Assembly: GCA_963662175.1 (NCBI GenBank)
Contig: OY759217.1
Span: 48,522,108 to 48,586,107, forward strand
Source: Aradus depressus
Lineage: Eukaryota; Arthropoda; Insecta; Hemiptera; Aradidae
DNA length: 64,000 bases
Direction: 5' to 3'
Below are positions 13,405 through 56,215 of this stretch, piece after piece. How positions within the stretch are numbered: position 1 is the stretch's first letter; each line of letters opens with the position of its first letter. A program made the position numbers and the translations under genes. Under the pieces are notes generated by a model. That model did not search any database. It saw only the letters and a program-made list of their open reading frames with translations, and was not told the origin of the DNA.

Positions 13405-13680
13405 AGTTCTTACGGTGTTGGTTAATTCCGGCATTTCTTCCAGAGGTTTCTTATTATTATTTTTTTTTCCCAACAATATTTCGGGACACTTACACGTCCC
13501 TTCTTCCGATCACTATGAACTGAAAACCAATAGTGACCGGAAGAAGGGACCTGTAAGTGTACCGAAATATTGTCGGAAAAAAAAAATAATAATAAAAAAA
13601 AGAAACCTCTGGAAGAAATGCCGGAATTAACCAACAGTAGAACATCCCAGAAAAGTTTAAGAAACACATAGTTCTTCCAG
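13405..13680. mobile_element. Snapback element P1 with hammerhead-like cores
   Basis: Two inverted arms (13417-13515 and 13531-13635) around a 15-nt loop. Each arm carries a hammerhead-like block: minus strand CGGAAGA (13502-13508), stem II GGGAC/GTCCC, then GAAA (13479-13482); plus strand CGGAAGA at 13538-13544 and GAAA at 13564-13567. The expected U of CUGAAGA is G here. A leader lies on the right (13636-13669: 'cagtagaacatcccagaaaa' ...). 'agttcttac' at 13405 and 'agttcttcc' at 13670 may be the target duplication. A related element lies at 31.95-32.43 kb. Confidence 0.7.
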
Positions 13681-14748
13681 AGGCGTACACATCCATAGGC
13701 GTAGAAAGATCATTTTTGTTGTGGGGGCCACGACTTAACAAATACTAAATGGAAGTTCAACCAGTTTACAATCCAATTTTTCCCCTTTTTCAGGCTCCAT
13801 GGGGTTTTTCTATGTCCCTCCTGGGCAGTCTTAAGTCTTAAAAATATGGAACACATTAAAAATAAAAATGTCTTCCCAAAATGAAATCTTAATAATAACA
13901 GAAACATTTTTTTAGTATATGCTGTATTTTAATTCAGCAAGTACTATTTCAAAAATTTTCTATATTCTAAAATCTAAGTATTTTAAATGTTATTCCTGAA
14001 TGAATAGGCAGATGCAAAATTTGAAGTTAGGGGTAGGGGGAAATATGTTCAACCATTTCCCGGCGATGAAGTCACAAAAAGACACAAAACGTTTTCAAAA
14101 ACAATGTACATGGGATGTACATATATGGGAAAGTGTAAAGTTTTACTGCGAGATACAAAACACAACACATGAGAGCCACACAGGTAGGAATAAATATGTT
14201 GTGGAAAAATAAGGTTGGGATTTAGAAAGTGAATTATGGGCTAGGCTGGCAGGAGGCAGAGAAATACTGAGGGCAGGAGGGTCCGTCTTTCACTGGTAAA
14301 ACATTTTTTTTATAACCAAATAACTCGTACTGTTCGTGAAGGAATTCCATATTTTGTAAAGCTACAGTTTCCAGTCGTACTTCTCAATTTAGTACGAAAA
14401 TTACAGAATCTTTGAAACAAGCGGGATCCAAGCTGGAAAAGTGAACTAGTATAGGCTAGCTGTATAGCTCATAGGTAAAATGAAGGTACATTCAATTTCA
14501 CTTTATACTTCCCCAGCTATATGAAATTATCTAATGTGTCATAAATTCGATGTTGTGTTTTCATCAAAATTTCAACTTTTATGACACTATCCCTGATCTG
14601 ATATAAAAAAATCGGTGAATCTCTGGCAAGGGGGAGGGGAGGGGGAGAGATCGTGATCTGTAACCGTGTTTGGTATCAAGCCCTGTAATGAGCACGACAC
14701 ATACTCTTTTCTTGAATTTTGTCATTTTCCATAAAGACTACCAGTTAT
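13681..14748. other. No gene recognised; family C end near 14640
   Basis: 14640-14690 has 'gggagagatcgtgatctgta' and 'ggtatcaagccctgtaatg', a diverged family C arm. 14505-14560 resembles the left end of family B ('tacttccccagctatatg'). Confidence 0.4.
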
Positions 14749-15094
14749 AGGTTAGGTTAGGTTTTATGACTCATGCCCAGGCTTTAACTACGAGGTCATA
14801 TCGCCTTACTACCAGAGCGCTCTTTCGTCACTCTGGTGGACATGAGCCCGACTCTATTTTGGGAGTCCTAAATTTTGCTCACCCTAAATTTTTATTCACC
14901 TAGGGTAGGGGTCTTTAACGAGTACCTGACATCATACAGGCTCGGGACCATCGCTTAACGTCCCATCCGAAGGACGGCGTGCTTAAGTTTATTTGACCTC
15001 CCAGATAAAATAAACTAAGGGCCTCGGTCGGGTTACGAACCCACGTTCTTGAGCTCAGAAGTCAAGCACGCATACCAGTGAGCTACCGGCGCCC
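14749..15094 (-). mobile_element. Full-length SINE-A, minus strand, CCTAA tail
   Basis: Runs from the reversed tail 'ggttaggttaggttttatga' to the reversed head 'gagctaccggcgcccg'. Box B appears as 'gggttacgaaccc'. The length is 346 bp, the same as the reference copy, and it is well preserved throughout. Confidence 0.9.
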
Positions 15095-15097
15095 GTA

Positions 15098-15192
15098 AAG
15101 ATGGCATGCTTTCTCAAGGGCCTCGGCCAGGTTTAGAACCCGCGATCAGCTGAGTAGGTTAGCACGCTATCTTTGTGCTAACGGCTCCCTCA
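15098..15192 (-). mobile_element. Second SINE-A head fragment, minus strand
   Basis: Carries 'gggcctcggccaggtttaga' and 'agcacgctatctttgtgcta'; an older, more diverged head piece directly after the full copy in the same orientation. Confidence 0.65.
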
Positions 15193-15199
15193 GTAAGTA

Positions 15200-15644
15200 A
15201 TGCTTAATTTGTAAAGCTTAGTAACAAATTGTAAAATATCTTTTTAATATACCTAAGTATTTTTTTAAAGATAACAAATAAAGAAAAAGAAACTACAAAC
15301 TGGTTGGTATAAAAAAGTCCTGTTAAAGCCACAACATTTTTTTTTTTTTGCACAAAAACGAAAACATTTCTAGTCGTGAACTTCCATCATGATTCCTTCA
15401 TTATGTAATCATAATTTTGGTTATGGCGGAACGAAAAAATGACAGGCGACTACAAATGACAGGCGAGTGTTGGTGACGTCATCTGACCTATATCAATTCT
15501 AGCGCTCTCATTATAGGCCACCCGACTGCTAGATAGTTTGTCATGGAGCTCGGAGCCCTCCGTAATAAAAGATAATGTTAATTCGTTGCTACGCGGTAAA
15601 ATTTAAACATTCTTTGACATATTTCCTACGGAGATTTGGTTTAA
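15200..15644. repeat. Family C end leading into family D
   Basis: 15297-15330 reads 'actggttggtataaaaaagt' then 'cctgttaaagcc', the family C end. The following AT-rich stretch with 'cgttgctacgcggtaaaatt' matches family D near 34.3 kb. Confidence 0.5.
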
Positions 15645-16160
15645 ACTTTTTTTTTTTAGTTTTCATTTAACGTCGCATAGACTTCAGGATCATTAGCGAC
15701 GACTATTGAGTCTACATGTCCTAGTAGAGGTTTCCGTCTTTAAGGAACTGGATGAGTCCGTTGTATCCGTCGTTGGGTGTTTTGTATGTGTTTTTTAGTG
15801 TGGTGTAGTTTGTGCAGTCGGTATATGTTGTACTGTGAGCTCTGTGTAGTCTCTTGGTTGCAGGATCATGTCGGCTGTTCAAGTCCAAGAAGTAGGTAGG
15901 TATGTGTCAGTTTCGTATGTCCAAGTCTTAGTCTTGTGATGATCACCGTGTCTCGTCTGTTCATGGTGCTTGCAGGTTTCCATGGCTTGTTTTCTTCTTT
16001 TATTCTTCGGAGTTTGTTGTCTTTCATCATTGTTCCAGTGTTGTTCAATTTTCCTTCTGAAGTTGGTCGAAAGGTCTTCTGCTGTGTTAACTGTTTGTTG
16101 AGGCAATAAGGGGGAGAGTGCTTCTTCGTTCCCAGGTATGCCAACATGGACGGGATCCAA
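15645..16160 (-). pseudogene. LINE (RNase H-bearing, I/Jockey-like) 3' end
   Basis: Read on the minus strand, this begins in an RNase H domain (PVHVGIPGNEEA, the catalytic 'HVGIPGNE.AD' motif with the final AD lost), passes TRLRLGHTKLTHTYLLLG in another frame, then a C-terminal zinc-knuckle-like part with TVQHILTDCTNYTTLKNTY. A 3' UTR follows that ends in 'gacgttaaatgaaaac' and an A run (T run on plus at about 15647-15656). At least two frameshifts are needed to read through, so it is dead. The 3' UTR is shared with copies at 42.6 and 59.4 kb. Confidence 0.8.
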
Positions 16161-16745
16161 ATTAGTTTTAATTTTTTTTATTTTTTTTAATTAATTAGTT
16201 TGCATAGTTTGAGGCGCAATATTTTTTTCATATTGATCCTATCTCAAATCTGAAGGCTTAATACCATTGAGAATTTAATAAGGAACATTTTTGGTGAGAA
16301 CCAATTTTTCGATAGAATTAACTGTTTTTGAATAAGTCAACGAAACGTCTGAAAATATGTTTTTCAAATCTACATTTCAAGACGGTTTTCGGCATCTATA
16401 ACCGAGACCAGTGAAAAATCGTAGTATTAATTGAAAAGTGTTTTAAATAGGTCATAAACATATCTTGTAAAATGTACTTAGGCCTCAGAGTAAAATAGTT
16501 TCAATTATAGTCCGATTTCGGCTCAAATCTAAAGAGATCTAAGTTAGCACATTCGGCGGTAGAGCGCTCACAACTTTCCAATCATGGACACACGCACACA
16601 GACAGACATCATCGCGAACATGGTCAATACATGTTCAGAGGACCTTGAAACATGAAAATCCGTTGAAACCTCGATCTCGGATTTTTGCACGATTACAATA
16701 CTTTCTTATACTATACGTATAAAGAATGTAAAAAAGCTAACGATT
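16161..16745. repeat. Family D copy
   Basis: Good-length copy. Blocks in order: 'cctatctcaaatctgaaggc', 'ataaggaacatttttggtga', 'caacgaaacgtctgaaaata', 'aagttagcacattcgg', 'agagcgctcacaactttcca', 'acgcacacagacagacatca', 'gcacgattacaatactttct'. The end near 16700 matches the target of the SINE at 62.98 kb. Confidence 0.7.
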
Positions 16746-17127
16746 AGATTTTGGATTTGTAGCCGTGTTCTGCTCACTGTCCTACTGGAGTCTCAGCTGT
16801 GTCTATTGTCCGTTGATCTGCCGGGCTGAGACAATGCGAGAGAGACAGAGTCACAGATCTGAAGACATTGTGCGACTGGACAAATACACACTGTAATTAA
16901 TCTCCTCCAAGTGAAGTCTCCCCGAGGAGTGAACCCCATATAATCCTATACCACGTCTAGTCACTACGCTACACCCCTACCCCCCTGCTTCCATTAGCAT
17001 CCAATTTCACTCCATTCTATCACTAGAACGCATTATCCAGGGCATAATTAATCTTCAAGATATATTTGCCATAGGAAAAAAGTTGAAAAATCACTGGCAA
17101 TGTACTTCCCCAGAACGAATTCATAAC
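16746..17127. other. Unique-looking stretch, then a family B scrap
   Basis: 16760-17060 shows no shared repeat and no gene. 17088-17122 is a short family B end ('cactggcaatgtacttcccc'). Confidence 0.4.
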
Positions 17128-17739
17128 TACAGTGTAAACTCTATATAGCGACACTTAAGGGACTGCGCATTTTATAGCGTTATTGAGAGTTGTCGTTAAA
17201 TGAAGAGGAGAAAAATCAATACATATTACATTACATTTAATAGTATTACTAGTATTTACTAATAAAGTATAAAATTTACAAATAACAACGCTTATTGCGT
17301 ATAGTCTGTTATCTTCGTCTGACGTTTTTTGTTGCTCCAGTATTTTAATTGTATTTTCTTATGTATTTTATTCATGTCTTGCGATACTGTGGGATCAACT
17401 TGCCGTGCAAGGTAATCACAACAAACAAAAGAACGAATTTCTTAGAATCTTCGGTACGTATGATGCCGACAGTCGAGGTAATACGTGCTAATCAATAAAT
17501 CAACAAAATAACAAACAAAATAACGTACACAGCTGCAGTTGTTATTAATTTCGGCAACTTGGAAGTACTGTTTATTACTAAGTAATGACGTATTGTTGTC
17601 GTTATTTAGAGTGGGTGTGATGCTACATAGAGTGTATCATTGTATGGACAACAAGGTAAACCAACCAGATTCAAGTAATTTCGATGTTTTACGGAGTTTG
17701 TCGTTAAATCGAGTGACGTTAAATGTAGTTTACACTGTA
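17128..17739. mobile_element. Pogo/Tigger-type element with transposase C-terminus relic (copy 1)
   Basis: Ends are 'CAGTGTAAACTCTATATAGC' (from 17130) and its near reverse complement ending 'gtttacactg' (17737), flanked by TA, the usual Tc1/mariner-superfamily target. On the minus strand a stop-terminated frame (about 17300-17445) ends ...YWSNKKRQTKITDYTQ. QTKITDY resembles the PCNA-binding motif found at the C-terminus of pogo transposase. The catalytic DDE part is gone, so it is non-autonomous. A shorter, closely similar copy lies at 30228-30776. Confidence 0.75.
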
Positions 17740-17929
17740 TTTTGAATTTACTACATTTTTTAGAATATATATGAACATTTATTCTTTTTTTTAATTAATT
17801 TATTTATTTATTTTTTATTTAAAACGTATTCCCTGTAATAAAGGAAAAATTAACGTCGACAGTCACTTGGACTATCGTAGCCCTATCGATAGTCATGAAC
17901 TATCGTTATATCGCCCATCCCTACCAACC
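17740..17929. other. AT-rich spacer with 'ctatcgatag' cluster
   Basis: 17868-17915 has several versions of 'gactatcg' and 'ctatcgatagtcatgaacta'. No gene. Confidence 0.4.
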
Positions 17930-18185
17930 GCTTTTGTAATGATCTCTCTCCCTCCCCATCTCTCCTCTCACATTCATTTCATTACTGGGTATAAGAAAGA
18001 CACTCTCAGAATCAGGCTGTACAATGATACAAAGAAAACTGGTGACGCCAGCACATTACTTTCATGAACCCAGTAATGCCGGCATTAAATGAATTAGAAA
18101 GGAGAGAGTGGGAGGGAGAGTGACATGAAAGAAAGTGGTTGGTATAAAAAAAAAGTCCTCTTATGGCCATATCACATATATATTG
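17930..18185. mobile_element. Family C foldback MITE
   Basis: The left arm ('ctctctccctccccatctct' ... 'catttcattactggg') and right arm ('ccagtaatgccggcattaaa' ... 'gggagggagagtgac') are reverse complements. The outer end is 'gtggttggtataaaa' ... 'gtcctcttatggccat'. The centre includes 'gaatcaggctgtacaatgat'. No protein. Confidence 0.75.
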
Positions 18186-18425
18186 TCTGACTTCTCAAGT
18201 TATACAACGTATAGAGGAAGTTATGTAATCGGTGAAAAAATGAAAATTTTATATGTGAATTCAGAACCTTCTAAGGACGACACCTACTAATATTTAGCCA
18301 AATCGACCAAAGGAGAGGGGGGTTAGGGGGGAGGCTTAACGCAAAAACTCTAATAACTACCGTTGTAATGAATGTATTGACACGAAATTTCTTATCGAAA
18401 TTCAGAGTCTTATATGGGCGACACC
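18186..18425 (+). repeat. Family B copy, left half
   Basis: Begins with the left-end block 'gaggaagttatgtaatcggt', then 'gaattcagaaccttctaagg', 'atatttagccaaatcgacca' and 'aatgaatgtattgacacgaa'. Confidence 0.7.
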
Positions 18426-18590
18426 CAAAGGCGCAGCAAAAAACCAAGATTACGACAATTGTGCTTTACTTGAATGTACATGTACAAAACAAGTCATATT
18501 ACATTTATTTAAATATACATGAGTTCGATCATTTCATTTCCTCGTTCAAAATCGTCATTTATGTTATACTTCATACACTCTTGAAGCTGG

Positions 18591-18737
18591 CTTTACATGC
18601 GCAGGAAAAATGCAAAGCGCAGCAGCGGCAAATGCACGCTATTGGATGTGAGTCATTTAATTCTAAAAGCACAGAAACCACAGCGTGCATTTGCTGCTTC
18701 TGCGCTTTGCATTTTTGCTGCTCAAGTAAAGCTTAAG
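18591..18737. mobile_element. 147-bp palindromic MITE
   Basis: The left arm (18591-18641: 'gctttacatgcgcaggaaaa' onward) and right arm (18680-18737) are reverse complements over ~50 bp, sharing 'aaatgcaaagcgcag' and 'gcaaatgcacgct'. The spacer is ~38 bp. No coding capacity and no second copy in the window. Confidence 0.75.
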
Positions 18738-18899
18738 TATTACAGTCAGTGGTTACCTCAGGGGTCCTTCTAGGGGTCCGAATCTCCCAAAATGTCTGGA
18801 GCGCTAACCACGGAAACTGTGGACTGTGTCCCCGGGAGTCTATACACCCCCCCCCTCCCCCCACACCCTGGTCAATATTCTGACTACGCCCCTGGCCCT

Positions 18900-19265
18900 A
18901 GTTTTCATCGGAGTCAATCGAATAGAAGGTTGGGATCAGAGGAGGCTCAACTCAAAAATGTTAATAACTGCCGTTGAAATAAATTAATCGATGTGAAATT
19001 TTATATTTAAATTCAAAACTTCATAAGGATAGCAGGTATTAACGTTCCGTGAAATCGGTCCAAGGGAAGGTGGGCTCGACTCAACCGTAATGACTACCAA
19101 TGTAGTATGGATGTATCGACATAACATTTAGTATAGGTATTCCACAATGTAAGTCAAATATTGAGTATTAGCTCAAATGGTCGATTGGCTTTGGAGGGAG
19201 AGCGAAAACTTAATTGGTTAATTCTTGCTGGGAAAGTACATAGCTGATGATTCATCGATCAACTT
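18900..19265 (+). repeat. Family B copy
   Basis: Blocks: 'ataactgccgttgaaataaa', 'tcaaaacttcataaggatag', 'agtcaaatattgagtattag', 'gcgaaaacttaattggttaa', and the end 'gggaaagtacatagctgatg'. Confidence 0.7.
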
Positions 19266-19539
19266 ATTTTTGTTTTTTAGACAATTTTGTTTTTATTCTA
19301 ATAGGTTAGAAGTGTTGTTTGAGCCCCTCGACATGGGGTGGGAGAGCTGAAACAGGCCAACAAAGAGGGCTTTAATGGGTTTCCTTTTTACCAAATTTCC
19401 GCTCTGAGGGCAGACCAGCCATTTTCCACCCTCATCACACGTCCTTACTCTATTGGTTTACTTTTAAAATTACCCAGATTGTCTCAGCCTCTTGAACCAT
19501 TAAAAAACCGTCGTCAGTGAACCACCGGCAAATTATATA

Positions 19540-20035
19540 TATATATGTATGGTGGGCTGGTGTATTACACCTAGGGACCTAAGCACTCAGTGCTTTTATC
19601 CCTTCCCTGGAAGCGCTTGGCTTCCCCCTTATTATATTAACTATATGCCTATATTTATACTATACTTATACTACCTGACCCAAGTCCTTCATGGAGTGCT
19701 CAGTCTCCCAGTTTCCTTAATGAACCTAAGAATGCTCTCATAGTCCAATCTTCTAAAGTCTTCCTCTGCGATTGCATCTCTACCAAAGATGTGGAATCTT
19801 ATTCGCACATATCCCGAGCAGATACCCAGGAAGTGTGCCGCCGTTTCATATTCTTCCCCACATCTATCGCAGGTAGGACTGTCCCTGACTCCCACAGTGT
19901 GTAGATGTCTATTGAACGGACCATGTCCTGTGAGAACTTCAGTCAGTTGCCTGAGCTCGTTCCTTTTGAGGTTCAGGATCTCGTCTTTCAGAACCCTGGA
20001 CTCCCCTCCCAGGAACATCTTCGACTGCCTGCATG
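19540..20035 (-). pseudogene. LINE C-terminal zinc-knuckle region, minus strand
   Basis: Encodes the tail of a non-LTR retrotransposon polyprotein: VLTGHGPFNRHLHTVGV, then DSPTCDRCGEEYETAAHFLG with C, C, H, C in the CxxC...H...C arrangement usual after the RT/RNase H region. It ends RRLDYESILRFIKETGRLSTP before a stop near 19689. Downstream (19540-19688, minus) is a likely 3' UTR ('gggaagggataaaagcactg'). The same family recurs on the plus strand at 57.36 kb. RT and endonuclease are absent, so it is a 5'-truncated copy. Confidence 0.78.
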
Positions 20036-20040
20036 TGGTC

Positions 20041-20725
20041 TAACCACCGGCAATGTAACCCAGAACGAATTATTAAATTTACTCCCCCCCCCCCCCCCCC
20101 CCAAAAAAAAAAAACCAGTCGCTAATATTCAACAGTTGACTTACTATGGGCTCCTAAATCCTCACACTAAATTTCATGTCGATTCATTCATTACATCGGC
20201 AGTTATTTGAGTTTTTGAATTGAGCCCCCTCCCCTGAACCCCCTTCTCTTCAGCCGATATCGCTGAAATTTGACAGATTTTGTCCTCTTAGGGTTTGGAC
20301 TTTAAATATAAAATTTCATTTCGATACATTCATAAAATCGGCAGTTATCGGGGTTTTTGAGTTGAACCCCCTCTGACTTCCTTCTCCCTTTCTGCCGATT
20401 CTGCTGAAAATTAAAAATAGCCGTCCTTATATACCCCCCTTCCTTTCGGTCGATTTGGCTAAGGTGTTGTCCTTAGAGGGTTCTGAATACACAGATACAA
20501 TCTATTTTAAACCCCTCCTCTTTTTGTAAATTTATCTGAAAATTGATAAGTGTTGTCCTTATGGGGTTTTGGTCCCACATATAAAATTTTCTTACAACTA
20601 TTGGTTTTTTTTTTAAGCACTCCCCTTTTTGGCCGATTTGGCTGATAATCATTTGTGAGATTCTGAATATACATACATTCGTGTCGATATATTCGTTTTA
20701 TCGGGAGTTATCGTGTTCGTGAAAA
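20041..20725 (-). repeat. Family B copy, longest, with internal ~145-bp periodicity
   Basis: Starts at the end motif 'accaccggcaatgtaaccca', followed by a C tract and A tract. The module 'aaatttcatgtcgattcatt' ... 'ttgagccccctcccctgaac' ... 'cagccgatatcgctgaaatt' is then repeated with ~145-bp spacing (first at 20163, again at 20307, more diverged later). It ends near 'cgttttatcgggagttatcg'. Non-coding. Confidence 0.75.
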
Positions 20726-20772
20726 TTGAACATCGAATTTCTGACCTATAAGTTGCCATATACTTCCGATAG

Positions 20773-21105
20773 ATGCGGAAGAAAAAGTGTTCGATATGTT
20801 GTACGTCATCAAACCCTATTGTGAAGTGTGAAAGATGTGGAAATGAGAAAAATGTATTGTATTTTCACCTTAATAATTTAAGTGATGGAAAAGTAAAGAA
20901 AGTTGTTTATTTAACGTTTAACTTAGGAATTATACTCGTATGTTGTACTGAATATTGCACCCCTTTTTGTATTGAAGACAGATTGACAGGGTGGCTGCGT
21001 GATGTGGATGAGGCAAGGATATCTTTTCGGGGCATCCTTCCCCTTCTTCCAGGGGGGCCTCCTCAAGCTTTATCAACCACTAACCGTTGTCTAGACCTTC
21101 TCTAA
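20773..21105 (+). CDS. Uncertain 110-codon frame with CxxC pairs
   Basis: The N-terminal part reads MRKKKCSICCTSSNPIVKC then ERCGNEKNVLYFHLNNLS, with C6/C9 and C19/C22 spaced like a zinc-binding knuckle. The remainder (from about residue 55) has no recognised pattern. It directly follows family B sequence. There is no promoter or splice evidence. It may be a chance frame, a transposon fragment or an exon; I cannot tell which. Confidence 0.2.
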   Translation: MRKKKCSICCTSSNPIVKCERCGNEKNVLYFHLNNLSDGKVKKVVYLTFNLGIILVCCTEYCTPFCIEDRLTGWLRDVDEARISFRGILPLLPGGPPQALSTTNRCLDLL

Positions 21106-21215
21106 CACCTGACCTCAATCGAAGCAGCACTAAGGTGCAATATTGTGTAGTCGATGCTGGCTCAATGACGCTACGTCCGTCCTGCATAAAGGTGAAATCT
21201 TCATCACTAACTGCC

Positions 21216-24050: not shown

Positions 24051-24109
24051 AATAAAAGATATTGTCTTCCCACTGTTTTAATTTTTTAAGCATATAAATA
24101 AGCATAGGT

Positions 24110-25659: not shown

Positions 25660-26015
25660 TTTTTTGGCCTTATGTCCGAGCATATTGGCCAACCCTACTC
25701 CAAGTCTCAGAAACCGAGGGAAGAACGAGAGGCTCGGGGTTGCTGGGAGCACGCGGGCGGCGCTGTCGGGGCTCTGGTCTTAGACCCAGAAGCTCCGTAG
25801 GCCTGGACGGCCAGCACCACATGCAGACCTTCCTTCAGGAGTCTCCCAAACCACTCACTACTCAGCTTTGAGCCTCTATGTGCTGTATATTGTTATTGTT
25901 GTTTGAATTGTTTACCCTTATACTAATTGAGCCTCATAATGAGGGCAACCTTAAAAGCCGGCTAACATGAAATAATAAAATCTATGAGAGGTAAGACTAA
26001 CATTTCATCTCACGA
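25660..26015 (+). mobile_element. Penelope-like element 3' end (copy 3)
   Basis: The last ~85 bp (25928-26012) align with the 3' end of the PLE at 33.3-34.1 kb: 'cataatgagggcaacct', 'aaaagccggcta', 'aatctatgagaggtaagact', 'ctgtgaaat'. The hammerhead-like core is decayed (CTCATAA for CTGATGA; TAAAA for CGAAA). The GC-rich 25680-25860 stretch upstream is probably more of the same element but has no readable domain. Confidence 0.6.
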
Positions 26016-26119
26016 ACTGTGAAATTTACATGGAACCCTCATAACAAGCCTCAGAAATCTCAAAGAACTTTACGGCCTCCTCAATAGATGATCGAAATTG
26101 GACATGACTGGAAAACGGA

Positions 26120-31936: not shown

Positions 31937-32441
31937 ACATCATTGACAATGTGTTTCTTAAACTTCTCTAGATGAAAACTGACATAATTGCAGAGATATT
32001 GTGAAATAATTCAAATGGTCTTGAAAAATAAAATAAAACTGGTTTATTTAATATGTTGTCTAATTTCACTAACTATATATACTAACTATATAAGACCCAG
32101 TCTTATCTCTTATGCTTTTGGCTGAGGATGGTAGAAATACCGAAAGTACTCCCATGTATATATAGTTAGTGAAATTAGACAACATATTAAATAAACCAGT
32201 TTTATTTTATTTTTCAAGTCCACTTCTCTAGGATGTTGAATTGTTAATTTTTTCCGGCATTTCTTCCAGATTTTTTCTACAATATTTCGGGACACTTACA
32301 CGTCCCTTCTTCTGGTCACTGTGAACTTATGTTCTTAGTGACCACAAGAAAAGACGTGTGTCCCGAAATATTGTCGAAAAAATAAAAAATTAAGACTCTT
32401 CTGGAAGAAATGCCGGGAAAAATTAACATCATCAACAATGT
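31937..32441. mobile_element. Snapback element P3, split by P2
   Basis: P3 is related to P1: leader 'gtgtttcttaaacttctcta' (31951-31974, resuming at 32222), then arms 32243-32320 and 32337-32427 around a 16-nt loop. Minus-strand hammerhead-like block: CAGAAGA (32308-32314), stem II GGGAC...GTCCC, GAAA (32285-32288), then TATTGT. Probable target duplication 'acatcattgacaatgt' (31937-31952) and 'acatcatcaacaatgt' (32426-32441), 14/16 identical. Removing P2 gives an element of ~225 bp. Confidence 0.7.
31962..32235. mobile_element. Snapback element P2 with complete hammerhead-like core
   Basis: Two inverted arms of 63 bp (32020-32082 and 32156-32218) are identical at every position, around a 73-nt centre. 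The plus-strand centre has CTGAGGA (32122-32128), stem II GGTA-GAAA-TACC, GAAA (32142-32145), the palindrome GTAC (32146-32149), then UC. The bases flanking the core (GG before, CC after the cleavage site) can pair as stem I. A ~45-bp leader precedes the left arm. 'acttctcta' at 31962 and 32222 is the duplicated target, lying in the leader of P3. Confidence 0.78.
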
Positions 32442-33316: not shown

Positions 33317-33751
33317 GTTCTGCCGTACCTCCCCAGACTCTCTGAGAAATTATCTCGGATAATAAATAGAAATAATGTGAATATGGGTTTCAAAAGTAGG
33401 ACTTCCCTTAAGGGGATGCTCTCAAAACCCAAAGATCGAGTGGACCTCCCTGACAAATCCGGCGTGTATAGGATTAATTGTAAAGATTGTGAATGTTTTT
33501 ATCTTGGGCAGACAGGCTGGAAGCTTAGGACTAGAGTGAGGGAACATTTGAGGAGGGGCGACTCTGAATTTTTCCAACACCTCCAGAACACAGGTCTTGA
33601 GGCCGGTTCAGTCTCGTTACTGCATCATGTCCAAAAAAGTAGAAAGATGGATACATTGGAAAGTATAGAAATCAAATTGGAAAGGAGGAAGAGAGAGTCC
33701 CCCCTCCTCAACTCTAGAGAGGGGATGGGAGGTTTGTCCAGCCTCAGGTAG
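33317..33751 (+). pseudogene. GIY-YIG endonuclease domain of a Penelope-like element
   Basis: The frame begins after an in-frame TGA with VLPYLPRLSEKLSRIINRNN, the linker that precedes the endonuclease in PLEs, and reaches a TAG at 33749. Counting from the Met at 33377, GVY (29-31) and YLGQTG (42-47) are the GIY and YIG motifs. Cys35, Cys38 and Cys40 lie between them as in PLE endonucleases, which have a CxxC-type insertion. Basic residues R51, R53 and R55 and EH (56-57) follow, then E-containing LESIEIKLERRKRESP and the terminal LLNSREG. The domain looks intact, but without the RT it cannot mobilise itself. Confidence 0.88.
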
Positions 33752-33974
33752 GTTGTGACTCAGACGGTGGACAGGGATAACTCGTCTGTCCCCAACCACG
33801 ATATTTTAAATTGTTAATGTTTTAGATTGTTATTTATTTATTTTTATTATATTATTTAGTTTTATTCAAACATTTTTATTTTTATCAAGTATGTTTAATC
33901 AAAAATTGTGTTTTCAATTTAATTATTTATCTTTGCTATTTATATTACATATTATATTAGGGATGGTTTCTTTT

Positions 33975-34025
33975 GTAGACGGCCTGATGATGAGGGAAAC
34001 CTCGAAAGCCGGCTAGCTACCACTA
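33975..34025 (+). ncRNA. Hammerhead-like ribozyme motif in PLE 3' end
   Basis: CTGATGA (33984-33990) is followed by GAGG-GAAA-CCTC (stem II, after one extra T), GAAA (34004-34007), the palindrome GCCGGC, and UA then GC. This is the conserved hammerhead order C3UGANGA / G12AAA / U16.1-H17, with a C before the core to pair with the first G after the cleavage site. PLEs are known to carry minimal hammerheads with a very short stem III. The extra T at the base of stem II lowers certainty about activity. Confidence 0.65.
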
Positions 34026-34088
34026 CCAATAAAAATCTGTGAGAGGTCAGACTATATTTTATTTGACAACCTTTGAAACTCATATACT

Positions 34089-34900: not shown

Positions 34901-35020
34901 ATGTTCATTTTCTTACATCAGAAATATAATTTCATTAGACGTAGGTCTTATACCTACATCCTTTCCTAAGATTTTCCAGGGGAATGGTTCAAAAAAATAT
35001 TCGTAACGAATACAAAAGTA

Positions 35021-35240
35021 TGATGCTTTTTTCCGAAATGTTTTCCTTTCTTTTTTTATTGATAATATTTCAAAACACTTCCACGTCCCTTCTTTGAATT
35101 AGATTCATCGTGGCCCGAAGAAGGAAGATGGAAACGTTCCGAAATATTGACAAGAAAAAAAAGGAAAAACGACAAAGAAAGGAAAAAAATGTCGGAAAAA
35201 GCATCCCTTAAGAAACAACATAAAGTTCAAATAATACTGT
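35021..35240. mobile_element. Snapback element P4
   Basis: Diverged inverted arms (about 35021-35095 and 35117-35206). Plus-strand block: CCGAAGA (35115-35121), stem II GGAA...TTCC, GAAA (35141-35144), TATTGAC. It is related to P1 and P3 by the GAAATATTG and 'ttaagaaacaacat' leader similarity. Both the U of CUGAAGA (now C) and the later U (now A) are changed, so it should be inactive. The target duplication is not clear. Confidence 0.6.
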
Positions 35241-40247: not shown

Positions 40248-40505
40248 ATCTAAAGCTCTAATAATTTATGGTTTCCAGATTTACTTTGTGAAGCTCCATT
40301 CTAGGAATAGATAATTAAAACACTCAATTTCTTTGTCAAACTTCACTATATATTCTCAAATACTCAACTAGTTTCGCCGTGTTAAGGCATTATCAAGAGT
40401 TTTTAAGTGACTCTTGATAATGCCTTAACACGGCGAAACTATTTGAGAATATATAGTGAAGTTTGACAAAGAAATTGAGTATTTTAATTATCCATCTAAA
40501 GCTCT
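40248..40505. mobile_element. Snapback element P5
   Basis: 'atctaaagctct' at 40248-40259 and 40494-40505 is a perfect 12-bp target duplication around a 234-bp element. It has a ~49-bp leader (40260-40308, 'ggtttccagatttactttgt' inside), then arms 40309-40400 and 40410-40492; the right arm lacks 8 bp. Arms encode TTGATAA, stem II GCC...GGC, GAAA (40435-40438) and CTA on plus; CTAG on minus. The hammerhead-like core is therefore degenerate. P6 at 56.0 kb is the same family in reverse. Confidence 0.85.
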
Positions 40506-46514: not shown

Positions 46515-46600
46515 CATTCCCATTTTCTAAGTTGAGAAACGCGGACATATTGTGGAAACTTGTAATAAATAAATAAAACAAACTTATTCATTCCCATTTT
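46515..46600 (+). mobile_element. Minimal 62-bp insertion related to snapback P7
   Basis: 'cattcccatttt' at 46515-46526 and 46589-46600 is a perfect 12-bp target duplication. The 62-bp insert (46527-46588) begins 'ctaagttgagaaacgcggac' and ends 'aaacaaacttatt', matching the leader and the start of the left arm of P7 (54133-54193). It has no hairpin and no ribozyme core. Confidence 0.88.
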
Positions 46601-48608: not shown

Positions 48609-49334
48609 TAGTTTTCTAGAACATTCTATACACATCGGATTTTCGCATGTTAAACCCTCTCATTTGTGATTGGTTATCTTGGCTGGTCAGCCTGTATCTT
48701 GAAATATAGAATACGTATGTACTATAGAATTTCTACCTAGATCCGGGGTTTGGGAGTTAAGAGAGAGGAAATTTAGATTGAAGAATGATATAAAATAATA
48801 CCAAGATATCTAAGATGTCATCCCGGCTTTATTATTTTTGTAGGGGATAACACAAAAGGATGGAAATTCCCAAGAGAAGGATGGATCCGTCTGAATTAAA
48901 GACAAATATTGGAGCGTCGAGTCCAAGTTGGAGCAATTAAGTGAAGCACCCCTGCTGGAATGATTAAATTAGAGTTTGGGCATTGGATCTTTTGATTTGT
49001 GAACATGGATCCATTCCTCAGACTTTGAGGCTCTCAGTGAGTCAATCAACCAAACCAACATTAGCCATTTTAACACTTTGATCTTACTAAAAAAAATAAG
49101 CTTACAGATGAGCACATGTTTTTTCTGTACAAGAAAAACAAACTGTAAAGGTTTGGTAATGGCGGAACTAAAGTTTTGGGGACCATGAGGCTTTTCCTTT
49201 GAACGAGGCCCCCCTGCAGAAATGTGTTAAGGAAAACATTATGGATGAGATTAGTATAGGAGGGCAAGATTTAAATAAATCTGTAAAGTAATTATTTATT
49301 TATAGAATCTTATAATGCAGTTATAAAAGTTAAT
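48609..49334. other. Unassigned
   Basis: No gene or shared repeat recognised. Confidence 0.4.
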
Positions 49335-49558
49335 TAGTTGTTGTGGTTCATGCCTGGGCTTTAACTACCAGATCATATCGCCTACTACCAGAGCGCTCTT
49401 TTATCGGTCGACTCTATTGAGGGAGTTCTAAATTTTGCTTACTTAGATTTATTCACCTAGGTTAGAGGTCTTTATCGAGCACCTGACATCCATCGCACAG
49501 GCTCGGGACCATCGTTTAACGCCCCACTCGAAGGACGACACCTCCCAGATAAACATAA
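49335..49558 (-). mobile_element. SINE-A, minus strand, headless
   Basis: 'ttagttgttgtggttcatgc', 'catatcgcctactaccagag', 'cacaggctcgggaccatcgt', ending at 'cgaaggacgacacctcccag'. Confidence 0.78.
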
Positions 49559-50206
49559 ATAACGGTCTGCCGAATCTTATTGTCAGCCACAATAACTTGT
49601 TTTTCATTGCAGTTAATAACTTACGACTTTTGCTCAAAGCTCTGTGATTTGGTTAGTAATAATTTAAACGCTCTTAAGCTAAATTACTACAGGTTGTTGG
49701 TTCGTTCTTAACAACTGGTTCGTTATTAACAACTCGTGTTAACACAAGCTCTATTTCCATAAATGAATACCTTTTATTACCCAGAGATCTACTGAACTGG
49801 TGCGAGGTATCAATTCCCATGCTGCATGCTATACTGAGTGCAGATAAGCACTGGTGTGTGATAATCATGGATGATATGTAACTGGTGATGAGGTGGCTAC
49901 CACTGTGTTTGTACTGCCTCATTGAATCATTTTTATCGATGAATTATACACCGACCAGACCAGGATAGACCAAAAGCCGGTAACGGGAGGACATATCGGC
50001 CATAAATGGAAGCTTTGTTATTTGGGATACTTTCTCTCTTTCTCTTATTATCTGTAACAATGTTTTATTAAAATAATAGTTATTTAAGACACTTATTTCT
50101 CTTTCTCGATTCAAGATACGTCTCTATTTCTCTCATTTAGTCACAAACATCTTTCTCTTCCACTCTTTTAGTCATTTCTCTCTTACTTTTTCACTTTATA
50201 GTTTGT
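49559..50206. other. Unassigned
   Basis: 50020-50210 is pyrimidine-rich with repeated 'tttctct'. An 82-codon minus-strand frame (49674-49922) has no recognised family. Confidence 0.4.
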
Positions 50207-50692
50207 TTAGTTAGTTAATTATTGTGACTCACGCCCAGGCTTTAACTACGAAGTCATATCCCCTAGTAACATAGCGCTCTTTCATAGCTCGGGTGGACAG
50301 CCCGACTCTACGTTGATAGTACCTGTATTTTGCCTACTCAGGTTTAGAGTTACCTGGGGTAGGGGTCTGTAATGAGTACCTGACATCACACAGGTTCGGG
50401 ACCAACGCTTAATCAGCTTGTTTACTGAGTTCAAGATCGCGGGTACGTAACCCTGCCGAAATGGTCCTGAGCCTGTGTCAGGTACTCGTTAAAAAACCCT
50501 ACACTAAGTGAGTAGGCAAAATTTAGGATTTCCATTGTAGAGTCGGGCTTATGTGAACCAATTCAAGGAACGTTCTGGTGGTAGGCGATATGACCTCGTA
50601 GTTAAAGTCACTGTAACTAACAAGTCTCCCATATAAAAAACCTTCCACCAGGTTTCAAACTTGCTATCTTAAGCTCAAAAGGCAATAAATAA
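50207..50692. mobile_element. Three SINE-A pieces in alternating orientation
   Basis: 50207-50410 minus ('agttaattattgtgactcac' ... 'gttcgggaccaacgctta'), 50411-50622 plus ('gttcaagatcgcgggtac' ... 'gtagttaaagtcactgtaac'), 50623-50692 minus ('aggtttcaaacttgctatct'). Confidence 0.75.
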
Positions 50693-50770
50693 TCAGTTGA
50701 GGGAGAGCGAAAACGTAATTGATTAGTTTTTGCTGGGGAAGTATATAGCCGGTGATTCACCGAAAACTTT
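50693..50770 (+). repeat. Family B right end
   Basis: 'gagggagagcgaaaacgtaa', 'ctggggaagtatatagccgg', 'tgattcaccg'. Confidence 0.75.
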
Positions 50771-51485
50771 TTTATTTTGCAACCTGTGACAACCATCTTC
50801 ACAGTATTAAAGGAAACTGTTATTGTTAGCTCCTTCAAGCACAGATAACTGGATGCAGCTGGCAGCAAGGATTGTGCACTTTAAGAGAAGGGGGAGGTGG
50901 AGAGGGGGAGAGGGACAAAACGCACTTTTTAGTGGGAGGATTTTCAAGAATATTCTACTCTGTCCAATGGCGGGCATCCAATCAAGAGGCCTATCTTCCG
51001 TGCTCCCTCTCCGTCGGTTTTTCATTACAGGACTTTTCATCAGGAGGGGGAAAGAGAGAGAGAGGCGAGAAGTCGCCGCAATAATGCTGGAAAATGATGG
51101 GAGACACAATAGCAATACCGTTCTACCGTCATAACATTCACAGCATCTAAGTAACAGGTACATATAACCGGTATAACTCTAACATATAACCAGTATAACA
51201 GTTTGAATGGCTATTAAATAACAGCAATATAAGGTATAACGAGGTCCAGGGGGGATAAGGACAAGGAAGTGTTATAAACCGATTGTGAGATACATACAGA
51301 GTTGAGAACCGTCTTACAACCCATTTTTTAGACGTTTACTCTATCAACGCGAAAAAGAGTTAGTCGCAACAAACAGACTCCCCCTCCCAAGATTTGAGAT
51401 AGAAACCAAAGATATGGTACTCCAAAAAATATACAATAAATTTCTGTAAGAAATAGCTCAAAGCCATGTTTAAATTGTAACGCAA
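50771..51485. other. Unique-looking sequence with purine-rich patches
   Basis: Two overlapping frames at 50807-51163 on opposite strands arise from purine-rich tracts ('gagaagggggaggtggagag', 'gggggaaagagagagagagg'). No family recognised. Confidence 0.35.
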
Positions 51486-51870
51486 ATTTTAAAATAGGTT
51501 TTACAGAGGCTATACTAAGTATAGGAGAAGTTATGTAATCGGTCAAATATTCGATGAAGAGTTTTCAACGGAATTTCATTATTTCCGACCTCCAGATAGC
51601 GAATATGAAAAAAATGTCTGTCTGTGTGTGTTTGAGAAGATAACTCCCGATAAAATGAATGTATCGACACAAAATGTTATATGTTCACCCAAAATCGTCT
51701 ATCGATGACACTTATAGATTTTCAGCCAAATCGACCAAAGGAAAAGGGGTATTAGGGGAAGCTTAAATCAAAAACTTTAATAACTATCGATATTATTAAT
51801 TTATCGATACAAAATTATATAGGGTCATCTATGGAAGTCAACTATTGAATATTAGCTTAAACGTGTGATC
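51486..51870 (+). repeat. Family B copy
   Basis: Left end 'ataggagaagttatgtaatc', then 'gtctgtctgtgtgtgtttga', 'attttcagccaaatcgacca', 'caactattgaatattagctt'. Confidence 0.75.
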
Positions 51871-51944
51871 CGTGTAACCAATTACACGTACAATCCTTCA
51901 GGAGAGAGTGGCACAGAGACCTCCTGAGGGTTCACCTCATAGAT

Positions 51945-52075
51945 CATCTTCATCTAGCTCTACGAAGTAGGTATAGAAGTTAATTACATTCGATACATTC
52001 ATTTTATCGGGAGTTATCTTCTCAAACACACACAGACAGACATTTTTTTCATATTCGAGTTTTTTTTCAGAATTT
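51945..52075. repeat. Family B left-end fragments
   Basis: 'acgaagtaggtatagaagtt' (plus) followed by 'gggagttatcttctcaaaca' and 'acacagacagacattttttt' (minus). Confidence 0.55.
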
Positions 52076-52109
52076 TTATGTTTTTCGATCCTTTCTTTCT
52101 TCTAAAAAT

Positions 52110-52200
52110 AAATTTTAAAAAATCTCGAAAGCCGGTAACTCGTATAATAAACTCCGTGAGATGTCAAACAACGTTTTTATTTTATCTCCTTTGGAATAAA
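52110..52200 (+). mobile_element. PLE 3'-end fragment (copy 4)
   Basis: 'tctcgaaagccggtaactcg' followed by 'aactccgtgagatgtcaaac' matches the end of the PLE at 34.0 kb. The CTGATGA half of the hammerhead-like motif is missing. Confidence 0.6.
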
Positions 52201-52210
52201 AACTGATTTT

Positions 52211-52451
52211 AGTTTTCAATTCAGGACGACCAAGCTAGGGTGGAGTTGATTCATGGGACAAGATCGTATTTGGGACTAGATCTACGGCAGATGGTGACGG
52301 AAACTGACTACCCGATGTTCTGCCGATTCGTCGGCTCCTGGCGGGAGCAGAAACAGGCAATGTAATGATCCCGAGCTTTGCCTAAACGTAGACTGGGTGA
52401 TGTTGCTGCAAACCAACTAAAAAAAAAAAAAAAAAAGTTTTCAATTCAGGA
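52211..52451 (+). mobile_element. LINE 3' end with 16-bp target duplication
   Basis: 'agttttcaattcagga' at 52211-52226 and 52436-52451 is a perfect 16-bp duplication. The 209-bp insert opens with a stop-free frame (DDQARVELIHGTRSYLGLDL, then RQMVTETDYPMFCRFVGSW, REQKQAM, stop), a plausible C-terminus of a LINE ORF2, followed by a short 3' UTR and a 17-19-nt A tail. This is a textbook 5'-truncated target-primed insertion; the LINE family is not identified. Confidence 0.85.
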
Positions 52452-53194
52452 AGCATAATTTATTTAAAAAAATTAAAAAAAAAAAAAAGAATGGGGTTAT
52501 TGAAAAAATATCGCAAACAACAGTATTATAATTCTTGACTTTTCCCCTATCTTGCCAATTTCTCTACAAATTTTCCCCAGGAATGAGATATTTCCCCTCC
52601 AGATAGAAGTGCCGACCATTTTTTTCCCTCCTCCTGTCTTGTTAAACTGTTCCTTGCCAGAAGCTGACATGGTTGGTCTCACTAAACTTTCCTATCTTGC
52701 TAACTTTCAGAGGCCTCCCCCCTTTCTTGCCTTTTAGGGAAGGTTATAAAGAAAAAGTTAGCTTATATTGGGTACTTCTGCACCCCTCTCCCCCGGGCTG
52801 TAGTCATTATCGTCCACGTACTCTTAAATAACATTTCGTTTTTCAAAAAAAAAAAATATATAATAATAATAATAATAAAAAATGTTGTGGTCCTAAATCT
52901 TTGTTAAAACTTTAAATAAGTTGTACCCCTGTTGTTTCACCTCCTAATTTCAGTTTTTTCTCTTTTCTTTTTTTAAGAACAACCGAAACTGTTGCTAAAG
53001 TACAACAACCATGGACCTGGAAGATACATACTATCCAAATAAAGACTTGAGAGAGGATGACAACCCAGTGGCAGGCTGAAATGAAAAAAAATAATAATGG
53101 AGTTAAAAATACAATTTAGAATAATAATATTATAATAGCAATTAAGGAAAATAAAAACTAAAATAATAAATTTTTAAAAATTACCGTGGAGTAA
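52452..53194. other. Unassigned; weak exon candidate near 52.98 kb
   Basis: 52940-52980 is a polypyrimidine tract ending 'tttttttaag'. About 30 bp later a well-placed ATG ('acaaccatggacctgg', 53008) opens a 22-codon frame (MDLEDTYYPNKDLREDDNPV, then AG, stop). This could be an exon start, but no partner exon or donor site is visible. 52859-52880 is (AAT)n. Confidence 0.25.
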
Positions 53195-53645
53195 AAAAAA
53201 TTATCGGTGAATCACTGTCAATCTACTTCCCCAGAACGAATTATTCATTTCTGTTTTTGCTCCTCCTCTAAAATCAGTCGATCGTTTGTTAGGGTTTTTG
53301 AGTTGAGTCCTCTGAAATTGTTTTAACTGAAATTTCATGTTTTCCGACCCCTGATTCCAAAATTTAAGAAAAAAATCTGTTTGTTTGTATCTGTGAACAC
53401 GATAACTCTTAAAAGAGTTAATATAACGCCACGAAATTCTATATATGTATCCAGAACTCCTTAAGGGCGACAACTAGAGTTTTGCAGCCAAATTTCAAGA
53501 AAATGAAAAGGAGGGGATTAGGGGAGAGGCTTAAATAAGAAACTCAAAAAACTTCCATTGTTACCAATGTGTAGACCCAAAATTTCATGTAAATTCAAAA
53601 CTTCATTCGTCCTGGGGAAGCACATTGTCGGTGATTCACCGACGT
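53195..53645. repeat. Family B copy with inverted ends
   Basis: Left end in minus orientation ('tcggtgaatcactgtcaatc', 'tacttccccagaacgaatta'). Right end in plus orientation ('tcctggggaagcacattgtc', 'ggtgattcaccga'). The interior is plus orientation. Confidence 0.7.
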
Positions 53646-53867
53646 CTCAGAATTTCGTGTTTTCCTCCCCTGATTCCGAAAATTGAGAGTTTTTTCAGCA
53701 AAATCGGCATAAGGAAAGGAGAGTTAATTAGTGAGGGGGGTTATACTCAACCCTTAATAACTCTAGGAGGAATGAATGTATCGACACGCAATTCATTAAG
53801 AGAATTATAAAGTCCCTGTTTCAGTCAAATATTGATTTTAAGTCAAAACAGTCGAAATACAGGAAAT

Positions 53868-54647
53868 GTGGCGGCTATCAAACATATCTCAGAGAGCATA
53901 GAAAGGAGGAAGAGGGAGTCCCCCCTTCTCAACTCTAGAGAGGGGATGTTTGTCCAGTCTCATGTACTCCGTTCTCCCAGTTGTGACTCAGATGGTGGAC
54001 AGGTATAACTTATCTGTTTCCATCCATGAAATTTCAAATTGTTAATGTTTTTAGATGGTTTAATTTTATTCTAAAAATTTTAAATTTTACATAAGTACCA
54101 AAATATTTTAACATAAATAATATAAAAATATTTTAAGTTGAGAAACGCGGACATATTGTGGAAACTTGTAATAAATAAATAAAACAAACTTATTTTTGAA
54201 ATATTGTCTATTCCACTAAAGATATATATACATATATAACTACCGGTTTCGGCTTTATACCATCGTCAGGTCTAACTAGACCTGACTATGGTATAAAGCC
54301 GAAACCGGTAGTTATATATGTATATATATCTTTAGTGGAATAGACAATATTTCAAAAATAAGTTTGTTTTATTTATTTATAAAAATATTATTTATCAGGT
54401 ACGTTTATTTCAAACTCAACTTGTTACTTTTCATAATTTAATGTGTTTATATTTATTTAAATCTTTGTTGCCTTTATATTTTATATTTGTTACCAACAGA
54501 ACCTGTTTTTTGGTTTTGTTGCTTAAGGATGGTTTCTTTTGTAGACTGCCTGATGATGAGTGCAACCTTGAAAGCCGGCTAGCTAATACAAATAAAAAAT
54601 CAGGGAGAGGTCAGACTACATCTTATTTGACAACCTGTGAAATCAAA
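53868..54647 (+). mobile_element. Penelope-like element 3' part (copy 2), interrupted
   Basis: Reads SIERRKRESPLLNSREGM, the endonuclease C-terminus also seen in the PLE at 33.7 kb, then an AT-rich 3' UTR. Snapback element P7 (54133-54377) interrupts it. It resumes at 54390 and ends with 'gactgcctgatgatgagtgc' and 'aaccttgaaagccggctagc', then 'gacaacctgtgaaat'. The hammerhead-like core CTGATGA and GAAA are kept but stem II (GAG/CTT) is weakened. Confidence 0.82.
54121..54389. mobile_element. Snapback element P7 with near-perfect arms and an intact minus-strand hammerhead-like core
   Basis: 'tataaaaatatt' at 54121-54132 and 54378-54389 is a perfect 12-bp target duplication; the element is 245 bp. 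A 38-bp leader is followed by arms 54171-54273 and 54278-54380 (103 bp, one mismatch) around a 4-nt loop; the last three bases of the right arm lie in the duplication. Minus strand: CTGACGA (54269-54263), stem II GG...CC, GAAA (54250-54247), CCGG, UA then G. Plus strand: CTGACTA, GAAA (54301-54304), CCGG, UA. The single mismatch is the G8 position of the core. Confidence 0.9.
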
Positions 54648-54750
54648 ACATAGTTGACTAATGCTGGGGTCATAGCCCATAATTCACCGATATATCTTTA
54701 ATATATGATGAAAAAATTATAGATACTATATTTGAGCCTAAGGTATGAAC

Positions 54751-55508
54751 CTCTAAAATCCGGTTATAATGATATTCAAGGGACTAGGAAAAATACATCG
54801 TTATATCCGGAACCAAACTGTTAAACCTACATACAAATGTATGGGCTTGTTAGTGAAAAAAAAGGTGTTTTACAATGATCATAACGAGATATTTGTATTT
54901 ACTTTTTAAAATTTACATAAAATTTACTTACATAAATTTGTAACTGTATACATAAATTATGTATACACATGATTACATATGTATTAACTTTCCACAAAAA
55001 ATCAATCATTTTAATTTGCTTGCTTTTTTTTAAGTATAAATTTTTGCTTACATGGTTATGAAGTTCCGAAGTCACGATCCTTACGGAGGCAAAGGAAAGA
55101 CTAATCTGAAACTAGGAATATATGCACTAGAACGGAAGAAGGAACTTCGACAAGGGGGAAATGGTATGTTTGGAAATGGAATGACTCATTGCGCTCAGAA
55201 AGAGTAAACAAGAACCCTGTTTAAAACCCTTTTCTATAATGTTTGTATTTTTCATCTGTTCAAAACTCATACTGTTTTACCCAATTATGTATGTATGTGC
55301 GTACATATTATATCGTTATAACCGGAATGAAAAAACAACTTTTTCTTATGTTTTAGATCGTTTTATACGGAATATCGTTATATCTAACATCGTTATATCC
55401 GGATTTATTTCTTCACTTTTAAATAGCAAACCAAACTAGATACGGGTTTTACATCTTATATCCGGAAAATGGTTATATCAGGAATCGTTATAAAAGGATT
55501 TTACTGTA
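54751..55508. mobile_element. Pogo/Tigger-like element, degenerate
   Basis: Left 'aaaatccggttataatgata' and right '...gaatcgttataaaaggattt' plus 'tactgta' are diverged inverted ends. Repeated 'atcgttatatccgga' occurs near both ends (54797, 55389). No transposase motif was read inside. Confidence 0.6.
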
Positions 55509-55946
55509 TATAATTTTATTTTTATTCTTTTTTCTAAAAAATGTATTCATTAATATGTATGTGAAAAAACAAAAAAATAATAATTTAATTGAAATTGTAC
55601 AAAAGATTTTTTTTGTATTTTTTGGAAATTTGATTGATGCTCCAATATGACCCATGGATTCACCACACAGGAGGGGTTGGGGGTTAGGGGTACTGATGAC
55701 CCATTTGTCACCATGGGACATTTATAGGGGAGGGGGCATTAGAAAGCGGTTCAATAGATGATCCCGAGGCTCCCGCCAAAACCACCTGTAAATCATGACC
55801 CGCCAAAAAAAAAATATATATAATGAATTATGGAGTAGTATTGGAAACAGAGGAAGGGAAAAAAAAATTGACCAAACAAAAGTTAACGAATTCCTTTTCT
55901 TTTATTCTTGTACCCTTCTAGCTTTCTGAGGGAAAATACAAAAAAA
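55509..55946. other. Unassigned
   Basis: Includes a G-rich patch at 55670-55735. No gene. Confidence 0.4.
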
Positions 55947-56215
55947 AAAACATCTGAGGAATAGATAATTAAAATACACAATTTCTTTGTCAAACTTCAC
56001 TATATATTCTCAAATACTCAACTAGTTTCGCCGTGTTAAGGTATTATCAAGAGTCACTTACAAACTGATAATGCCTTAACACGGCGAAACTAGTTGAGTA
56101 TTTGAGAATATATAGTGAAGTTTGACAAAGAAATTGTGTATTTTAATTATCTATTCCTAGAATGGAGCTTCACAAAGTAAATCTGGAAACCATAAATTAA
56201 TTAAAAACATCTGAG
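55947..56215. mobile_element. Snapback element P6
   Basis: 'aaaacatctgag' at 55947-55958 and 56204-56215 is a perfect 12-bp target duplication (the first base of the left arm coincides with its last base); the element is 245 bp. Arms of 92 bp (55958-56049 and 56066-56157) differ at one position; the leader is on the right ('tagaatggagcttcacaaag'). Plus-strand block: CTGATAA (56065-56071), stem II GCC...GGC, GAAA (56086-56089), CTAG, UU. The core G8 is A, so cleavage is not expected. Same family as P5. Confidence 0.87.

Follow-up and report, generated by a model that had tools for sequence, protein, structure and literature searches.

A window of 64,000 nucleotides from Aradus depressus (C4:48522108-48586107, contig OY759217.1, of the 698-Mb genome assembly GCA_963662175.1, against which all genome searches were run) contains seven short elements, P1 to P7, with inverted arms. 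These are probably very short head-to-head insertions of Penelope-like elements (PLEs), each made of two cDNAs that were primed from both cut strands of the target and ran off at the 5' end of the mRNA. At the level of sequence, the plan is a tail, an antisense terminal-repeat arm, a junction and a sense arm, placed between target-site duplications (TSDs). The elements are as follows.

13412..13669, reverse strand: P1, a head-to-head pair of PLE 5'-leader cDNAs, tail at the right end (about 13638-13669); TSD of 9 bp with one mismatch (8/9 identical) at 13405-13413 and 13670-13678.
31953..32426, forward strand: P3, tail split by P2 (31953-31971 and 32232 to about 32251), arms reaching to 32426, resembling P1; TSD of 15 bp with two mismatches (13/15 identical) at 31938-31952 and 32427-32441.
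31972..32221, forward strand: P2, tail (31972 to about 32017), left arm, centre with one hammerhead, right arm, the whole sitting in the tail of P3; TSD ACTTCTCTAG at 31962-31971 and 32222-32231.
35010..35225, reverse strand: P4, a degenerate relative of P1 and P3, tail probably at the right, where it reads MSEKASLKKQHK; no trusted target duplication on reading both flanks.
40260..40493, forward strand: P5, tail (40260-40302, its reverse strand encoding MELHKVNLETINY), arm 1, centre, arm 2 with an 8-bp deletion; TSD ATCTAAAGCTCT at 40248-40259 and 40494-40505.
54133..54378, forward strand: P7, tail (54133 to about 54170, its reverse strand encoding MSAFLNL), arm 1, 2-nt spacer, arm 2; TSD ATAAAAATATT at 54122-54132 and 54379-54389.
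55959..56202, reverse strand: P6, a member of the P5 family in the opposite orientation, tail at the right (about 56158-56202); TSD AAAAACATCTGAG at 55946-55958 and 56203-56215.

All seven had been picked out in an earlier sequence-only reading, and their inverted arms are confirmed here: those of P7, P6, P2, P1 and P5 fall within the top 25 inverted repeats of the window by length (I1, I2, I5, I8 and I25), and self-comparison of the window recovers the arms of P3 and P4 at 72% and 70% (85% complementary in P1). Duplicated target sites, previously noted for five elements, can be read in six, at 9-15 bp, P4 being the one without. P2 interrupts the tail of P3 in a nested insertion (31938-32441), and P3 is therefore the older of the two.

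Comparison with the terminal repeats of PLEs in the same genome shows derivation from such elements in the case of P7. Two partial P7 matches pointed to loci L061 and L062. The latter has the order endonuclease (EN) open reading frame (ORF), 3' untranslated region, P7 hammerhead, arm and tail, with an inverted, shorter, tail-less copy at its left end and a TSD of AATAACAGTTGC. Its arm, hammerhead and tail are 99-100% identical to P7, and it maps at 98% to the unit of locus L064, the parent of the P7 family. In L064, a single repeat of a tandem array whose period is 2852 bp, there is an open 839-aa frame with RVT_1 (2.7e-13) and GIY-YIG (5.1e-6) domains. This frame opens within the hammerhead, and its first probable start, MSAFLNLE, is encoded by the P7 leader read in reverse. 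Of 53 protein matches to the parent PLE, two carry an organism in their names, and both are from moths, Phthorimaea (41% identity) and Dendrolimus (30%). For P5 and P1, a PLE origin is suggested by tails that resemble ORF starts; recognized by frame alone, as an ATG with a short frame, they read MELHKVNLETINY in P5 and MPELTNSRTSQKSLRNT in P1 (X plus tail), and the P2 tail gives only MSVF. The proposal of a PLE origin stands for P7 and is supported for P5 and P1, and the repeated unit is, as proposed, a hammerhead-bearing terminal repeat arranged as an inverted dimer. The leader placed before the arms is the PLE tail, although in P1, P6 and probably P4 it lies at the right end. A tandem PLE array with an exact 2852-bp period is present at C7:19268174-19277092, where three of four EN matches fall in open 839-aa frames and one in a frame of 715 aa.

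Genome copies of three families were read from the best 40 scored of 401 (P5), 332 (P7) and 1193 (P2) first-look candidates. This gave 30 loci and P6 for the P5 family (31 copies), 27 distinct places for P7, and 19 copies and one solo copy, plus P2 itself, for P2; P1, P3 and P4 are described from their window copies. A search pattern designed to exclude the usual junction returned 30 places (20 stretches fetched), which were kept out of the counts of arm ends. P2, P5/P6 and P7 are thereby seen to be members of mobile families, and outer ends are uniform among their genome copies. TSDs of at least 8 bp flank 22 of 26 P7 copies (one copy dropped), against 1.2% in a mismatched-flank control, and 18 of 31 P5 copies, against 5.5%; the script overlooked some duplications that are visible by eye, such as that of P7 itself.

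Miniature inverted-repeat transposable elements (MITEs) and foldback elements are likewise short, with inverted arms and many copies. It is nevertheless exceedingly improbable that the elements are MITEs of DNA-transposon origin, mobilized by a transposase through excision and reinsertion and resembling hammerheads by chance. The tail lies outside one arm only, and the length of the target duplication varies between copies, so that the symmetric terminal inverted repeats and fixed TSD length of MITEs are not found. The hammerheads and the PLE match also set the elements apart, and the match of the P7 arms to a PLE terminal repeat already refutes a MITE origin for P7.

Two single-armed pieces were seen. 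The window holds a 67-bp solo piece of P7 tail and adjoining arm (46522-46588, 97% identical), flanked by short CATTCCCATTTT-like repeats, which is perhaps a one-sided insertion. At C4:40486200-40486900 (L107), a solo P2-type arm beginning at AGTCTTATC, without an inverted partner of its own, lies beside an unrelated large inverted repeat.

In the proposed mechanism, the PLE endonuclease would cut the two strands of the target with a stagger of about 9-16 bp, and each 3' end would prime reverse transcription of PLE RNA. One cDNA would begin at an inner start site and carry no tail, and the other would begin at an outer site in the ORF start and include it. Both would be extended toward the 5' end of the RNA and joined head to head by short microhomologies or a few added bases. 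For the short elements, the template would be the 5' end of the PLE mRNA, with reverse transcriptase passing the uncut hammerhead and running off where transcription begins (AGT(T/C)...); for longer head-to-head copies, it would be RNA transcribed through tandem PLE units. Purified PLE protein cleaves and extends both strands and begins reverse transcription at two internal sites, and the tail of the Anolis PLE is the stretch between these two sites in the ORF start (PMC11167929).

The unequal arms are evidence for two cDNAs. In P5 the tail-less arm extends beyond the other in 28 of 30 copies, L004 being set aside, and in P2 it does so in 16 of 20 (two equal, two unclear); in P7 it is longer in eight of 16 readable copies, equal in three and shorter in five. 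Folding back can copy only what is present in the template, and the tail-less arm of such copies holds sequence missing from the tail-bearing one; taken as they stand, these copies need two separate cDNAs. Because the inequality in P5 and P2 is directional, random later deletion is disfavoured. Tail-less arms in these two families also tend to stop at one base. For P5, 24 of 31 end at A(0), which is the A of TCAGTTTG; for P2, 14 of 20 begin at one and the same A, AGTCTTATC. TCAGT is the arthropod initiator consensus. The arm ends suggest that reverse transcription ran off the mRNA at its 5' end, which would be an initiator-like A, and the PLE RNAs are predicted to start at AGTTTGTAAG (P5), AGTTCATAAC (P7) and AGTCTTATC (P2).

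Arms that reach +1 were copied past the hammerhead, which indicates that their template RNA was not cut there, and hammerhead cleavage as the process that sets arm ends was rejected for the tail-less arms extending to +1. Nor does microhomology set the +1 end in P2, since ten of the 14 copies ending there have extra bases at the junction instead. Added junction bases were considered as copies of the cap, given the G or C beside +1 in several copies (C in L101 and L038, CC in L102, G in L050 and L094), but T and A also occur, and the pattern is too inconsistent to serve as proof.

Long PLE copies share this design, as the arrangement of EN matches indicates. From 7391 candidates, 150 matches were scored; those lying no more than 8 kb from one another formed 21 head-to-head pairs, no tail-to-tail pairs and five same-strand pairs at exactly 2852 bp. 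Nine long loci were mapped to the PLE unit, seven of them with TSDs of 9-13 bp by script. Both outer ends are readable in eight, and in all eight one end is tailed and the other tail-less, the tail-less arm ending at the inner start site. L061 and L062, found through a tail-bearing query, are among these eight; the other six were not found in this way. The tail-bearing copy is the longer in four of the eight and the tail-less copy in the other four.

These results bear on the possibility of snap-back or self-priming, in which one cDNA or antisense transcript would fold back and prime its own copying, the arms becoming unequal by later deletion at the centre of the palindrome. Such a process is suggested in PMC3846280 for head-to-head PLE repeats whose junctions are palindromic. 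It would fit the internal deletions in some P2 tail-bearing arms and the likeness of the two arms of a copy. Mean arm distance is 1.62 within against 2.21 between copies in P5 (29 of 31 copies used) and 0.92 against 2.83 in P7 (26 of 27 copies used), with 0 of 5000 permutations as extreme in either family. Fold-back of a tailed cDNA does not, however, explain a tail-less arm that terminates precisely with the inner start site, as seen in all eight readable long copies, and later deletion would leave a random inequality, not the directional one of P5 and P2. Snap-back is accordingly considered unlikely. The changes shared by both arms suggest that the two cDNAs of a copy, as proposed here, seem to come from one source locus. 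In P5, ten changes are identical in both arms, against a permutation mean of 1.96 and a maximum of 6 (2000 permutations).

The junctions bear on a further alternative, that of a non-autonomous MITE- or SINE-like family whose inverted dimer is itself transcribed and then propagated whole by PLE enzymes. The large numbers of candidates, the uniform outer ends and the single junction common to 20 of 31 P5 copies would all be expected from such a family. All 20 junctions of the 20 P2 copies differ, however, and those of P7 vary between copies; in addition, a variant present in six P5 copies is found in both arms of all six, which is unexpected if arms diverge separately. Copying as a unit is therefore an unlikely explanation. 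With P2 junctions all different and the tail-less arm longer in most P5 and P2 copies, the MITE-like snapback class of the sequence-only reading, an inverted dimer copied as such, is not upheld, and the elements are probably neither MITEs nor snap-back copies.

Several observations weigh against two separately primed cDNAs with run-off at the mRNA 5' end, or weaken the evidence for them. As the copies read are the best 40 scored of each set of candidates, the sample leans to query-like elements. The common junction of 20 P5 copies may reflect descent. Eleven of 27 P7 copies are not cleanly readable on both sides, and the right ends of P7 copies are loosely placed, 13 of 27 falling within -4 to +1 of the A of TTAGTTC. 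The P2 template was entered from +1 onward, so that ends upstream of +1 could not appear, and only the differing bases before +1 argue for a true end in this family. The tail-bearing P2 arms of L103 and L106, and perhaps L088, have internal deletions; these probable deletions, across or near the hammerhead, may reflect skipping by reverse transcriptase or later loss from the palindrome. Palindromes can lose central sequence after insertion, and this could likewise generate unequal arms. In six of 20 P2 tail-bearing arms the first break lies 4-11 nt 3' of the site of hammerhead cleavage, and three of the six share the base; such arms may have been copied from a cleaved template or may reflect stalling at the hammerhead. 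The changes shared by both arms could partly be the result of gene conversion. In the long copies, the positions at which the two arms are truncated show no correlation among 19 readable EN pairs (Spearman 0.05; L118 and L120, of the 21 head-to-head pairs, were left out as unreadable), and there is a weak excess of near-equal arm ends (7 against 3.0, P=0.02, at a threshold picked after looking). Owing to the lack of correlation, a single RNA serving both arms was dropped as an explanation. Finally, the Anolis study (PMC11167929) saw no difference in start site between strands, whereas in the present inserts, where readable, one strand uses the inner site and the other the outer.

Hammerhead-type cores, and the PLE 3' regions that also carry them, are located in the window as follows.

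32122..32151, forward strand: P2 core, CTGAGGA-stem II-GAAA-GTAC-U-C.
40366..40396, reverse strand: P5 core, TTGATAA (C3U/G8A).
54241..54269, reverse strand: P7 core of arm 1, CTGACGA-stem II-GAAACCGGU-A; the copy in arm 2 (54282-54310) has CTGACTA.
33317..34080, forward strand: 3' part of a PLE, with a GIY-YIG ORF (33317-33751; Pfam GIY-YIG E=4.6e-6) and a hammerhead core (33984-34015).
53901..54642, forward strand: second copy of this PLE 3' region, split by P7, with a hammerhead core (54550-54581).

P7 has thus inserted into the 3' region of another PLE. A degenerate PLE hammerhead region is also present at 25931-26024, akin to the copies at 33957-34078 and 54523-54642.

A scan of the window for CTGANGA or TTGANAA, stem II, GAA and a palindrome ending in U, followed by H, found five places (P2, P5, P7 and the two PLE 3' regions), or four without TTGANAA, which entered the pattern only after P5 had been seen. 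In 1000 dinucleotide shuffles the maximum was three, reached once, which agrees with the view that the shared motif is not due to chance. Its proposed presence across unrelated families holds for P2, P5/P6 and P7, with the correction that P2 has a single core, in its centre; P6 fits the pattern only when one mismatch is allowed. The arms of P1, P3 and P4 contain degenerate variants, none with the PLE-type core CUGANGA. Among genome copies, CTGAGGA occupies 26 of 30 motif sites in the P2 family, and CTGACGA 44 of at least 55 in the P7 family (from the ten commonest kinds). In the P5 family (L001-L030 and P6), TTGATAA is found in 58 of 62 arms of the 31 copies. The two changes, C3U and G8A, would preserve pairing between positions 3 and 8 and are possibly a natural compensatory pair. 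A C3G/G8C double mutant of the Anolis PLE recovers partial activity, and hammerhead cleavage is not needed for insertion in vitro (PMC11167929).

The Rfam covariance models, to which the sequence-only reading had looked for confirmation, gave none: no hammerhead was found in the window at the gathering threshold or at E<=10, nor in four genome loci at E<=1, which counts against the cores. Hammerheads of the PLE type have a shorter stem III than generic models assume. Sub-threshold miRNA-like matches (E<=10) were read as hairpin artefacts. Palindromes of this kind may get annotated as MITEs or as miRNA precursors, as these matches illustrate.

Much of the architecture is already published, namely head-to-head pseudo-long terminal repeats (pLTRs), the one-sided tail, PLE hammerheads and the cutting of two strands. 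According to PMC3846280, EN-containing PLEs have pLTRs, an inverted pLTR placed head to head, TSDs of 8-10 bp, AT-rich targets, a pLTR overlapping the ORF start and a 31-bp tail on one of the inverted pLTRs. The copies described there are long or truncated and low in number, whereas each family here has 332-1193 first-look candidates of about 235-250 bp with no body; searching that paper for 'hammerhead' and 'non-autonomous' gave no hit. The sequence-only reading knew of no description of such a class. The elements share the design of the PLEs described there and represent its short extreme. PAc, Poseidon from Anolis, also has a hammerhead at the ORF start and two internal start sites for reverse transcription that bound the tail; that work was done in vitro and the second strand was not resolved (PMC11167929). 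Metazoan retrozymes (PMC7229834) are likewise small non-coding elements with type I hammerheads, for which PLEs are suggested as helpers; they differ in having tandem repeats and circular RNA, and the word 'inverted' is absent from the main text of that paper. No description of a short PLE class bounded by the RNA 5' end was found in the PLE and retrozyme literature, of which PMC11167929, PMC3846280, PMC7229834 and PMC12910113 were covered in part, and an earlier description is possible.

Second-strand synthesis of PLEs and the reason for head-to-head copies were left open in the main text of PMC11167929 and the Discussion of PMC3846280. Many uniform short inserts would provide a record of both first-strand cDNAs, with their two start sites, separate 5' ends and junctions; they argue against self-priming and predict the start of PLE transcription. 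More generally, and as a tentative proposal that may or may not hold in all its parts, PLE integration could be a two-sided target-primed reverse transcription with a different start site on each strand, giving one tail per insert, and closed when a finished cDNA end jumps onto the other cDNA. Short inserts would record that step together with the mRNA 5' end, the hammerhead would be uncut in a fully copied template, and the P5 family would retain a natural C3U/G8A hammerhead.

Other repeats are present in the window. The stretches 4310-5494 and 6993-7982 hold a minisatellite-like open frame in two near-identical copies about 0.7 kb apart, and a second repeat array. A perfect 68-bp inverted repeat with a 322-bp spacer (51600-52057) and an 87-bp inverted repeat of 94% identity with a 328-bp spacer (10702-11203) are possibly other mobile elements.

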